DNA of 64,000 nucleotides, taken from Polytrichum commune (taxonomy: Eukaryota > Streptophyta > Polytrichopsida > Polytrichales > Polytrichaceae). The DNA is taken from contig OX485805.1 in the NCBI GenBank assembly GCA_950295325.1, positions 14,245,501-14,309,500 on the forward strand. The letters are read 5' to 3'. Below, piece by piece: positions 30,916 through 38,400 of this stretch (position 1 is the stretch's first letter; every line of letters begins with the position of its first letter). The notes beneath the pieces are model-generated. The model saw nothing but the letters and a program-made list of their open reading frames with translations, was not told the origin of the DNA and searched no databases. The translations under genes were made by a program, and so were the position numbers.

Positions 30916-31978
30916 GTCACACTTATTGCTTATGGTTTAACTAGTCTCAATTTGTTGCTCATGCTTTAGGTTTTTTTTTATCACTTATAAATGTGGTTTA
31001 GTGTTGTTGTGGAAACATAGCTTCAATAGTCACATAATTATGACATGCAACTCAAAGAGTAATATGTGTCGCTCAATAGATCTTTCATATGAGGTCAAAC
31101 ATATGCTTCATTATAAGTGTTCAATAACTAGCTTGTAGGAGCTTGGAGGAACTTGGAGGATGAATGTTGAGGAGGGACTTCAACAATCCCCCTTTGTGGA
31201 AATTGGAAGTCCAAGCTTGGCTTTTTGGGGCTTTGATTCAATACATGAGCATTATATAACTCATGGCACTCTTATCATTTATTAGTAATAGAATAGGAAG
31301 TTAATTGTGTATAACTCCAATTGCAACTTGGAGGCTAAATATGTTGGATTTGGATTTGAATTTTGAATTGTCTCTTTGGAGTTTGCAATTAGATAAATGA
31401 CATGGTAGGGAGTTGACATGTTTTGGCATGTGCACAAGAAGACATGGGGTGCAATTTATTCAACCCAATAAGGTCCAATAATAGAGTAGTTGGTTCTCGT
31501 GGGAAAGGAGGAGTTGTAGCTGCCAAATTTTTATCATGTTTTATTCATTTAGTTTGTGCAAGTTTGTTTGGTTTCTTCTCATGTGATTTGTTTTATGTGC
31601 ATATCCATTGTGTGCTACAAATGGACAGGGTGTTTGTGACTGGGGTTTGATATCCCATGCATTTTTGACATGTTATAATTGAGTGATGAGTTTTGAAACT
31701 TTAGTATTGGTTGTTGATGTTAAAATTATTCCCTAATATAGAACAAATTACCCATGTTTCATATTTGTTAAACATCATGATAGCCATTCGTAACAACAAA
31801 ATATATGCAAAAGAGGCTAGGTAGCTTCATTATGTTCATGTTTGTTACCAAATCTTCAAAACCAATATTTGTGAAATCGGCATCTCCTTATGTTGAGTTT
31901 GATTAAATTTCGTGGCATCTTGGCCACACTAGAGGATTAAGTTGTTGCACCATGGCCCTCACCTATTTTCCATATGGA
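30916..31978. other. Intergenic, no gene recognised
   Basis: AT-rich, with one open frame of 75 codons at 31423-31650 that shows no domain. Confidence 0.4.
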
Positions 31979-33615
31979 CAGTGACAAACAAAATTGAGTA
32001 CTCAACTGAGAACTTCAATTTTGGCAAGCAATCTCTGGCGATTGAAATTTGATATCATTGAAGTAATTAAGCAAAGTATATGTACAAAGTAGTCTTCTAC
32101 ATGTGTGTAAAAAGAAAAATGTAAAAAAATAATTAGGGTTTTTGACAATAGCCATGTCAAAGCGGCTAGGGTTCACAAACTTAGTTTCGTTTGGAGCCAC
32201 CAGCCGAACTTCAATTTTCATTTGCATATTGAATTGTGGTCAATTTTGTTAGATCATTAGTGCATTGTGAAGCTCTGCAATTGGAGATTGTGTAGTAGTG
32301 AGGATTCATGCAATTGCTTTTGTATGCCTTATTCATTTGCGTCGCAAAAGCTCCAAGTGTTGGAGCAACTTCGGAATGGCAATTCAACATGAAAAATTGC
32401 GGATGCAATTGGGATGAGTCAATCTTGGGTAGTTAGGCTTAGAAAAGAGATCACGGGGGAGCTTTATCGGCAAAAAGGAGGGCGCCCAAGACACCTTGCT
32501 ACAAGAGAGAGGCGGATATGTGTCACCTTTCTTACATAAGGGCGTTTGGGAGTTGCATCAAAGGTGTCAACAGAGATAAAAATGAATCAGGTTAAAATAT
32601 GTTTGATGTAATTGTGAGACGTGTTTTGCGATGGGAAAGTTTTGCTACACATGTGCACGGGTGAGGTTTGCTAACATGTATGCAAATTGGACCGTTCATG
32701 ATTGGAGACGTGTTATTTTCAGTGATGAGACAAATATAAACATGTTCAATTCTTATGGTAGGTCATGGTGTTGGATAACATATGGAGAGCATGTACAACC
32801 GCAACATGTCCAACAAATAGTGAAACATGGTGGTGGACATATCATGATTTGGGGTTATATGACAAGTGTTGGACTTGGAGCTTGGCATAGAATTGAAGAT
32901 ATAATGGATCAACACGTGTACAATTTATTTTGAAAAATTTCTTGTGGTTTATAATCAAGCATTATAATTTGGTATTAAGCAATGTTGTGTTTCAACATGA
33001 TAATGATCCAAAACACGCAAGTAAGAGGGGTGCAAGAATGGCTGAAATTGCAGCCATTCCAACTTCTCCAGTGGCGTGCTCAATCACCATATTTGAATCC
33101 CATGGAGCATTTTTGGGTTTTTCTCAAACGGCATTTGAATGAATTTTCTACACCTCCACGAGGAATTGAAGAATTGTGGGAGCGTGTGTGCATTGTTTCT
33201 TTTAATTTCAGTGAAGAGGATTGTATGGCACTATATGAGAGTATGCTGCGAAGGATTGTTGTTGTATTGGTTGCTAAAGGCTATAATTGGACTAATTATT
33301 GAAGTTCAAAGAAGTAGATTGAACAATATTGAGTGCTTGTACATGGTTGATGATTGTAAATTGTAGGAGATTATCTACTTTTCAATATGATCTATAATTG
33401 TGCATACATATATACACACATAGCTTTATTTATTTTTGAACTCATTTTTTAGCTTTGCAAAAAAAATCTACATTGTCTGTAATGGCTTGTCAAAGTTGGC
33501 TTCTTCAACAAAGTACTCAGTTTCGTTCAACATTATACAAAAAAAATCTACATTGTCTGTAATGGCTTGTCGAAGTTGGCTTCTTCAACAAAGTGCTCAG
33601 TTTCGTTCATCATTA
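31979..33615 (+). mobile_element. Tc1-like DNA transposon, 1637 bp, inactive
   Basis: The left end (31979-32050) and the inverted right end (33544-33615) align without gaps over 72 bp at roughly 60% identity by eye. The left end begins CAGTGACAAACAAAATTGAG, a CAGT start typical of Tc1. The bases after the right end are TA, the Tc1 target site, while the left flank reads GA, a likely mutated TA. The total length matches the usual 1.6 kb. The interior holds a transposase pseudogene in the plus direction. Tc1-type elements are common in animals and fungi. Plant members of the superfamily are usually mariner-like with a DD39D triad, so this is unusual for a plant. Confidence 0.8.
32339..33302 (+). 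pseudogene. Tc1-type transposase, DD34E triad, broken
   Basis: N-terminal helix-turn-helix text reads LQVLEQLRNGNST, stop, KIADAIGMSQSWVVRLRKEI, then GRPRHLATRERRI, as in Tc1 paired-like domains. The catalytic core follows with ANWTVHDWRRVIFSDETNIN. The first aspartate is at 32724-32726, the second in QHDNDPKHASK at 32999-33001, and the glutamate in SPYLNPMEHFW at 33105-33107. Allowing for one extra base between the last two, 34 residues separate them, which defines DD34E. The C-terminus ends KGYNWTNY at 33302. Lesions include in-frame stops in the N-terminal third, a frameshift near 32930 and the one between D2 and E. All three catalytic residues survive as codons. The protein cannot be made intact. 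Confidence 0.85.
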
Positions 33616-33617
33616 TA
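33458..33617. repeat. Tandem duplication of the Tc1 right terminal repeat, 2 x 80 bp
   Basis: Copies 33458-33537 and 33538-33617 match at 77 of 80 positions, far more than the ~60% between left and right ends of the element. Each copy spans the whole right terminal inverted repeat plus the TA, so the element has two right ends in a row. The duplication must be much younger than the divergence of the two termini. Confidence 0.9.
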
Positions 33618-34173: not shown

Positions 34174-34487
34174 TGGAGTTAGACAACTCCACATTTAGTG
34201 CATTGGAATCAACACATTTCATATTGAGATTATGTGCACATGAGTTAGACAGCTCTCGATGAGGTGCATTGGAGTTAGACCACTCCAAAATTGGAAAGAT
34301 AAACTCTGAATGAATATATAGATCTAGTTGGAATTGGACAGTTCCAACTAGAAGAATGATTGAATGAACCAAGTTGGAATTAGACAGTTCCAACTAGAAT
34401 AAAGGATGGATGAATCAAGTTGGAATTAAATAGTTCCAACTAAAAGGAAGGATGGATGAATCCAATTGGAATTAGATAGTTCCAATT
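34174..34487. repeat. Array of short hairpins; four spaced exactly 46 bp
   Basis: Perfect 8-nt inverted arms around 8-nt loops start at 34326, 34372, 34418 and 34464. The first three are AGTTGGAA...TTCCAACT and the fourth AATTGGAA...TTCCAATT. Related shorter hairpins precede them: TGGAGTTAGACAACTCCA at 34174 and TGGAGTTAGACCACTCCA at 34270. Loops are variants of TTAGACAG. In the fourth unit both arms changed together so pairing is kept. Function unknown. Confidence 0.75.
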
Positions 34488-34984
34488 GGAAGAATGAGGT
34501 TGAGTTGAAAGATGGAAGAAGGTTCTAGAAGAACCAAAGATAGAAGATTCATAATAGAACTAACAGATAGAGCTATGAATAGAATACTTTTACTATATGT
34601 GAAAATAAAAAGTAAAAGTAATGTCGTTGGCATGAAAGGAAGCTCGGGGGAGGAGAGGGCATCTTTTTTTGTCTCTCTCCTATGGACGGGTGGTTGAGCT
34701 TAGACTAAGACCTACTTGATCTACGATTGTAATTTGACGTTACAAGGAAAATAAACCGAGTTCTTCAACTCATCGTTTTGATTGATAAGTGTTAGTGTGA
34801 AAGTTGGTGACAAACTTGTGAGAGGTTTGTTACACCTACCCATGACCTTCCCATGGTATATCTTACCTATCACCATATGTAAGTAGCATAAGGTTACATG
34901 GACTGTCACGCTAACTTAATTGTAGTTCATCCGCTTTTGGTATATTCTGTATACTAACATTCATAAAATATAAATTTTGTTATA

Positions 34985-35499: not shown

Positions 35500-38400
35500 A
35501 TGGCCGAAGATCTGGAGAAGAAGGGCCACCAGGCCTTTGTGGACGAGGATTTCGAGGAGGCTGTCAATCTCTACACGGAGGCCCTTTCCTTGGAGCCTCA
35601 GAATGCCGCTGTCCTCAGTAGCCGTGCTGCGGCTCACACCAAACTCGAGAACTACACTGGTACCAGATTTGCTGCCTTGTGATCGTCGTGTAGGGTGAAT
35701 TTTCGGTTTTGGTTCTGTCGGAAATTTTAGGGTTAAGTGGATTAGTTTGCGGGTTGAGTGTGGGTGTTGTTTTGAGGTTGAGTGTGCTCTGATTTTCCAT
35801 TCGGGGGTGGATCTTGACAGCTTTTGGAGGTTGGGTTATGTTTGATTTTGGTCAACGTGGAAGAGGGCTTGTTGAGTTTTTGTCGAAAAAGTTGAACTGT
35901 AAAGGGCTGGTGATTACACTGTCCATGATTCGAGGTCGTGCACATTCAAAACCTAAATTTGGTCGGATTAAGAGAAATGTCTGCTCTGATCCCATGTTTA
36001 CTATGCTGAGGAGGCTGGAGGCTTGGGTTTAAATCTTGAACTATGTCTGAATGGGTCAAAGTGGAAGAGAAATTGTTAGGTTTTTATCGAGGAACTTGAA
36101 TCGTAATGTGTTGATTATTACACTGTCCATGTGTCGAGTTCGTGCACATCCAAAACCTAAAATGGCTCGTATCAAGAGAAATGTCTGCTCCGATTCCATG
36201 ATCACTATGCTGAGGAGGTTGGAAGAATGGGGGTTAAACCTTGGGTTAAGTTTGAACTGGTCAAGGTGAAGAGCATTTGTCAGGTTTTATGGCGAGGAAG
36301 TTGAGCTTGAAATGGCTGGTTATTAGTGTCCGTGTGTCGAATTTGTGCACATCCAAAACCTAAATTGGATTTGATCGCGATAAACGTTAACTCTGATTCC
36401 ATGTTCACTATGCTGAGGAGGCTTGGGTTATCTCTGAATTTGTTGGGTTCTTTTGGGGGAAGTTGATGTTCAAAGTTGAAGTTCAAGGGCTGGTTACTAC
36501 ACTGTCCATGTATCGAGTTTGTGCAAATCTACACCTAAAAAGGGCTTGGATCAAGAGAAATGTCTGCTCTGATTCCTTGTTCACTATGCTGAGGAGGTTA
36601 GAAGTTTGGGTTTAACCCATGGGTTATCTCTGAATTGGTCAAGGTGAAGATATTTTGTTTGGTTATATGTCGAGGAAGTTGAGCTTGAAATGGCTGGTTA
36701 TAATGTGTCCCACAAATGGTATTAGTGCCAATCCGAAATCTAAATTGGCTTGGTTTAGAGGAGAGGGTGTGGATTGAGAGAAAAATTTACCTCTGATTCC
36801 ATGGTCACTACATTGAAGGTTAACTTCCACAAATTTGCACAATCCATGGCTCATGATCATTGTGCCAAGAGAGTGATCAGATGGATATGTGTTGGCATGT
36901 TATCAATTTTGAATGCTAACAGTGGATTGCCGCAATCAGCATCTGTAAAGTCATTCCAACAAAAAGCCCGTTTGGGTGAAAAGAACCTTGGCTAACTTCT
37001 TAATCTCTGTCTTTCCACCGCTAAATCTCCGTTACAATGAAATCCAAATTGGTGCTCTTACAGCTGGCCTTAAGGTCACATGGTGTTTGATTTAAGGTTA
37101 GAAAGCACCTGAGCTAATTAACTAGAAAAGGTCATGGAGATATGCAATTGTAAGTGGATTCATCCTAGTGCAACAGACAGTCTTCCAATATCTACACAAT
37201 AAGGTTGTTGACATTCAGCTTAATCCTTGAGAAGCCTACACGGAGTTGAATCATACTTTCGATAAGCAAGCATCTCTTGCATAATCCCTTACTGCTGTAT
37301 TTCCACATGATTTGTGCTTGAAATGAAAGTTGTCATGATCACAAGGAGTTAATACAAAGCTTTAAGAATGTACAGTAAATTCAAACAAAGTATATCTTCC
37401 TTCCTGAACTCCGGATATCTTACATTAGCTCATTCTTGATATCTATGTGTGCATGGCGAGAAGTCATGGAAACTTGTCCAAGACTTCTAGAGGTTAGCAG
37501 GGGATTTCTTTTGTGATTTATGTGCTGTAATTTATAGCAAGAATGATGACCCAGTCATGTTCAATACTTGTTTTACAGATGCTGTTGCTGATGCAAGCAA
37601 AGCCATTGAGTTGAATCCAAAGGCATCCAAGGCTTATCTGCGGAAAGGGTAAGCATCACTGTTACCAAATTTCAATTATCCTCCAAGCTGCTCATATTGC
37701 CCCGCTTCTAAAATCTTGTCACCTGTCAGTTGGTATGTGATGCCAACACATGGCGTGTTGTTCTTCTGGTCATTTTCTGAGTTTCAGAATGGCTAATTTT
37801 ATTGCAAACAGGTTGTAGGTATGGAGAGTTTTTGAATTGGCATATGCATCTTGATAAACAGAGAAAGTAAGCAAGTAATTGACGAGGAGCCCCTATTGTA
37901 TTTGAACAGAATGGCTTGCTTTTACCTGGAAGAATATCAAACAGCAAAGGCGGCCTTCGAGGCAGGGCAATCTTTGGACCCAAAGGCTTCTGGATTCAAG
38001 ATGTGGATTAACAAGTGTGATGCCAAACTGAGGGGTACTATTCATCACCCAAGGAGTTGTTATGAAGATTTTGATCCATTCAGGGAATGAAAGAAATAGT
38101 CTATTTAAATGGGTGGCCTGAACATGAATCCCATTGGAACTCTGGGGTCAAACTACCTAAGGTCGGAATATCGCAGTGCTCGGATTGGTGACCTTACTAG
38201 CACTTGATTTTCTGGTGCACCTTACCACCTATTGTCCACCCAATCATAGTAGGGATATTGGGCTGAACTGAATAGTTTTACCAACCATGTGGAAACCTAG
38301 AGGCTTGCCCTTGGGGGAGATTAGGTGTGGGCCGTCTTGTTTGCTCCCGTTCAAGGTGTTCCAACTTTGAAAGGAGGCAGTAGTCTTTGGGGCCCCTCTA

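Follow-up and report, generated by a model that had tools for sequence, protein, structure and literature searches.

The window, a stretch of 64,000 nucleotides, contains what is very probably a dead member of a multi-copy family of Tc1 (DD34E) cut-and-paste transposons resident in a moss-like nuclear genome, a reading drawn from sequence comparison to which we give a probability of about 0.94. The anatomy of the element, its catalytic triad, its copy number, its preference for TA and its decay were all observed directly. Elements of this kind have been known in mosses since 2014, and the find is a sound observation and no surprise. With it, the moss Tc1 elements, described earlier in P. patens, reach a probable second moss line that has more families than the two of P. 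patens, and the variety of families and of their ages within a single genome is the part worth following.

Anatomy of the window copy

The family to which the element belongs is here called family A, and the features of the window copy are collected in Table 1. The copy opens with CAGTGACAAAC from position 31979, its left CAGT intact, and closes with GTTCATCATTA at 33615, followed by TA. Both termini and a TA at the right border had been claimed by a first, sequence-only reading, which placed the element at 31979-33615; these coordinates proved right to the base, and the TA was found at 33616-33617. The left border is GA (31977-31978), not TA. The right terminus departs from the family form GTTCGTCACTG by three changes, all of them transitions, with ACTG decayed to ATTA. 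The same reading called the length of 1.6 kb typical; the copy measures 1637 bp and the family majority sequence 1,588 bp. An 80-bp duplication of the right end was not mentioned in that reading. It is because of this tandem duplication at 33458-33617 that the window copy is longer than its relatives (1547-1596 bp in 14 of the 15 other two-ended copies, 1308 bp in the remaining one). Since both tandem units carry the same decayed terminus, the duplication postdates the decay of the terminus. Among the 49 matches listed in the search of the genome with the window DNA, only the window copy itself aligns to the end of the query (base 1642).

Table 1. Coordinates, within the window, of the family A copy and its parts
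Feature	Position	Strand	Basis
Tc1-type (DD34E) transposon, decayed copy of family A	31979..33615	+	83-87% DNA identity to the 19 next-best genome matches
Left terminal inverted repeat, best-conserved 24 bases CAGTGACAAACAAAATTGAGTACT	31979..32002	+	family majority form CAGTGACGAACAAAATTGAGTACT
Remains of transposase gene, four readable pieces	32261..33302	+	tblastn with the L022 open frame; in-frame stops, at least one frameshift
Helix-turn-helix DNA-binding stretch of transposase	32393..32539	+	weak HTH_29 / HTH_23 matches, below cut-off in the window copy
First catalytic D codon, GAT	32724..32726	+	alignment to L022 D169
Second catalytic D codon, GAT	32999..33001	+	alignment to L022 D261
Catalytic E codon, GAG	33105..33107	+	alignment to L022 E296
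80-bp tandem duplication of right end, two units, 96% identical	33458..33617	.	repeat and sequence comparison; last 160 bases
Right terminal inverted repeat, outer tandem unit	33592..33615	-	decayed; reverse complement of family right end CAGTGACGAACGAAACTGAGTACT
TA target-site dinucleotide, right border	33616..33617	.	read from sequence; 10 of 16 two-ended copies have TA in register at both borders

The transposase gene is broken. The protein search match to it contains one TGA and two TAA codons, and in the window copy 103 nt lie between the second catalytic D and the E, enough for 34 codons with one base left over, which places one frameshift between them. Three catalytic codons, with 34 residues from the second D to the E once one frameshift is allowed, had been claimed earlier, and the codons beginning at 32724, 32999 and 33105 bear this out. 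None of the four window transposase pieces scanned reached a Pfam cut-off, and membership of the window copy rests on its alignment to better-kept relatives. One of these, L022, is open and matches HTH_Tnp_Tc3_2 (47.7 bits; cut-off 31.5) and DDE_3 (29.8 bits; cut-off 28.6), with HTH_23 just under its cut-off. The first two of these domains were both found at E 0.01 or better in all five A1 members.

The triad was followed in the 23 rows for which family A is the best reference, four duplicates of other rows having been dropped; a few of these rows belong to an A-like group, E. The first D is present in every row; 21 rows keep the second D and 19 keep the E. The second D is missed in the row of locus L019 and in that of the window copy, where the miss is an artefact of an out-of-frame join, another piece reading QHDND. 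In the four rows that lack the E, the third residue is K, K, S or Q, and in none is it D. A spacing of 34 from the second D and an E as third residue are found in the reference proteins of families A, B, C, D, F and G, the family D protein having G in place of the second D.

Family A in the genome

The genome searched comprises 408 Mb in 64 contigs, seven of them of 42-78 Mb, and the window lies inside a contig of 59 Mb. Searching it with the window DNA gave at least 49 matched pieces, spread over all seven large contigs (C1 to C7); this number is a lower bound, as 40 of 154 first-look candidates were scored. Of the 19 next-best matches, 17 span most of the window element. A protein search of the same genome gave at least 151 matches (150 of 749 candidates scored). 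The 26-base terminus together with its TA, allowing up to three mismatches, occurs 45 times on the forward and 50 times on the reverse strand of the genome, 95 in all, against none on either strand for the reversed-pattern control. A chance resemblance was rejected on this count.

Twenty loci were cut out, and both ends could be found in 16 of them (up to four mismatches), with one end only in L007, L010, L016 and L019. Ten of these 16 copies have TA in register at both borders, and 15 have it at the right one. The majority ends, CAGTGACGAAC on the left and GTTCGTCACTG on the right, form a 5'-CAGT...ACTG-3' inverted repeat and agree over their first 24 bases save in two places. The 16 copies differ from the majority sequence by a mean K2P of 0.067 and from each other by a mean of 0.119 (range 0.094-0.151). 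Changes of C to T and G to A exceed the reverse changes in all 16, an excess which we infer to be the usual trace of methylated, silenced DNA. Facing termini like those of family A also occur at much closer spacing, 229 bp apart at C2:20738570-20738798 and 395 bp apart at C3:27706032-27706426; these are probably short non-autonomous (MITE-like) derivatives.

How the element moved can be proposed from what is known biochemically of Tc1, Sleeping Beauty and Mos1. In an active family, a DDE transposase would bind the inverted ends through its helix-turn-helix domains, excise the element and join it into a TA, duplicating the TA in the process. After insertion, the window copy decayed, mostly by C-to-T and G-to-A changes, and its gene was broken; the left TA became GA or disappeared by some other route, and the right end was duplicated in tandem later. 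Searches of the genome with the flanks found no empty site, giving partial matches only (216 and 213 of 300 bases for the left flank, 77 of 300 for the right).

The flanks are themselves repeats, with 82-83% copies of 31679-31894 on C1 and C2 and an 87% copy of 33616-33692 on C2. Tandem repeats lie further to the right in the window, at 34326-34497 (unit 46 bp, 3.8 copies) and 35850-36423 (unit 204 bp, 2.8 copies). Pfam assigned no family to the 10 window frames scanned, out of 26 of at least 130 aa, and Rfam gave nothing at gathering thresholds. In PHROGs the matches were all weak, the families hit being annotated as DNA binding protein, DNA invertase or unknown. The same assembly has a plastid contig, C8, which carries psaA and psaB. 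The best matches of its psaB are the chains 8htu_B, 6l35_B and 7ksq_B (1701-1705 bits), the next scoring 1667 and the others 1630 and below; 6L35 and 7KSQ are described as P. patens structures in the cited parts of PMC7884438 and PMC11629750. This makes the host a moss or a close neighbour of the mosses, and a set of seven chromosomes would be in keeping with the Polytrichaceae.

Related families and their origin

Six further groups, B to G, were drawn from 27 further loci; since score and open frame had guided the choice of these, they give no census of ages. Four of the groups have ends of the same pattern as those of family A. In family B, of about 1.63 kb, the ends resemble CAGTGACTGCCAAAACTGAGTACA; family C, of about 1.59 kb, has CAGTGACTTCAAGAAATGAGTC; the ends of family D resemble CAGTGACTCCAAAAACCGAGTC and those of the A-like group E, with variants, CAGTTACGAACAAAATTGAGTACA. 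Family B has 48% and family C 43% of residues in common with family A. The six copies of family C compared (L037, L038, L045, L046, L047 and L054) have near-identical ends and a pairwise K2P of 0.020-0.026 over their inner part; family C is therefore very young and represents a recent burst. The K2P range of 0.035-0.254 for family B is unreliable, because cutting at fixed inner positions probably put two of the five members out of alignment, and the age figures for family D, from four copies only, are likewise unreliable.

Lineage F/G (F, L058-L060; G, L061-L063) stands further off, two F proteins having 24-25% of their residues in common with family A, and has the same 34-residue spacing and E. 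All three F loci have open frames. The inverted arms of L058 are at least 57 nt long and 98% complementary, and reach the edge of the fetched piece; this locus is perhaps a young insertion with long inverted repeats. At C2:69924840-69927183, an F/G-like transposase has a family C element within about 600 bases of it. The matches at C1:37826948-37833321 are repeated on contig C59 (4407-10780) with equal scores and a constant offset, and C59 is probably a redundant or alternative-haplotype contig.

A FastTree tree of 58 rows was built, from which rows with at least 60 unread residues or at most 200 letters were excluded; the window copy, L002 and L044 each enter it twice. The outside sequences were Sleeping Beauty (the one animal sequence), one piece of Mos1 and seven of 18 prokaryotic-type loci. 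Families A to E fall together with locus L050, split from Sleeping Beauty, Mos1, the prokaryotic-type rows and F/G with a local support of 0.959. Other joins are poorly supported, that of A-E with Sleeping Beauty at a local support of 0.590 and the placement of F/G beside six prokaryotic-type rows at 0.317. With so few outside sequences, the tree carries no weight on the question of origin. The 18 prokaryotic-type loci came from a search with A1, which gave only 17 loci in viral contigs and one in prokaryote genomes, at 23-36% identity, which are putatively IS630-like. No relative was confirmed when the viral contigs were searched with B, C and Sleeping Beauty or with F/G.

Plant Tc1/mariner elements are mostly of the DD39D kind, according to the cited part of PMC7325037, and the window element could in principle be such a plant mariner (PlantMar) misread through its frameshift. 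This is highly improbable, however, given the 34-residue spacing and the E in the reference proteins, the CAGT of the family terminus and the closeness of Sleeping Beauty among solved proteins: a profile of five transposases of this genome (A, B, C and two F) matched Sleeping Beauty best, at 1e-69, and the Mos1 mariner at 2.3e-8. Spacing and third residue led us to reject a DD39D mariner, and the E of the window copy and of 19 of the 23 rows, with D in none, to reject a DD34D mariner. The earlier assignment to Tc1 DD34E rather than to the plant mariners thus stands, on the spacing, the E and both ends, but it is not news, DD34E elements of a moss having been published in 2014 (PMC4054914, as far as cited here). 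That the element is contaminating or mis-assembled non-plant DNA is scarcely credible; nothing was found in favour of this idea, and we rejected it in view of the 59-Mb contig around the window and the copies on all seven large contigs.

Horizontal movement is frequent among Tc1/mariner elements, and the sequence-only reading offered a horizontal origin as a hypothesis. Family A might have entered the moss lineage recently in this way, with a fungus or an arthropod as a conceivable donor. In a published tree, P. patens elements lie nearest fungal ones, and a fungal source was proposed for the two P. patens elements PpTc1 and PpTc2 (PMC7466625, in the part cited), and the related family C is very young. 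A recent entry of family A nevertheless seems unlikely, since the pairwise divergence of its 16 copies shows that it is not young. The ends of families B, C, D and E are built like its own, and A to E form one group in the tree, although with one animal sequence there the split would also be compatible with several related arrivals.

Related families of differing age in one genome suggest that the elements have long been resident and did not come in a single recent arrival. On a tentative reading, to which we give somewhat less than an even chance, the Tc1 DD34E elements would be long-term residents of mosses, one lineage having given rise within the moss line to at least five families (A to E) with related ends and separate bursts, that of A old and that of C very recent, beside a second plant-resident lineage, F/G. 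If true, long residence would take the place of the view that one or two elements came in recently from fungi. That one DD34E lineage shows both an old burst and a young one in the same genome makes the question of horizontal versus vertical inheritance in mosses directly testable.

Comparison with known Tc1 and mariner elements

Sleeping Beauty, a fish Tc1 element, is the closest solved structure and is also DD34E; it has 39% identity to family B where the two align, and its host is an animal. The Mos1 mariner (DD34D) and the DD39D plant mariners belong to the same superfamily as the window family and share its TA target, but have D as the third residue where the window family has E, and the profile match to Mos1 is some 60 orders of magnitude weaker than that to Sleeping Beauty. 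The DD39D PlantMar elements are confined to monocots, dicots and a few oomycetes in the cited account of Dupeyron and co-workers (2020, PMC7325037).

Among the papers listed for Tc1 in bryophytes, mosses and land plants, none deals, by its title and the opening of its abstract, with Tc1 families in a second moss. In the sections cited here, Liu and Yang (2014, PMC4054914) describe PpTc1 (85 copies, 1,584 bp) and PpTc2 (22 copies, 1,709 bp) in P. patens, both DD34E with CAGT ends and TA, and Tc1-like DD34E sequences, mostly fragments, in nine angiosperm databases. RNA of both elements was seen by Vendrell-Mir and co-workers (2020, PMC7466625), that of PpTc1 possibly being gene read-through; in the cited part of their study, Marchantia, Arabidopsis and rice yielded nothing similar. 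A MITE survey across 207 plant genomes has also been published (PMC12550479).

By its published description, as cited, PpTc1 is like family A in being a DD34E element with CAGT...ACTG ends, a TA target and a length of about 1.58 kb, in many copies in a moss. It differs in that its 75 full-length copies average 96.3% identity and transcripts have been reported, family A being older. PpTc2 shares DD34E and CAGT ends with family A, but is 1,709 bp long and is placed in the Tc3 clade of PMC4054914. PpTc1 and PpTc2 are given there as having 26% of residues in common, much as family A and lineage F do here (24-25%), and one might guess, from these numbers only, at a link between PpTc2 and lineage F.
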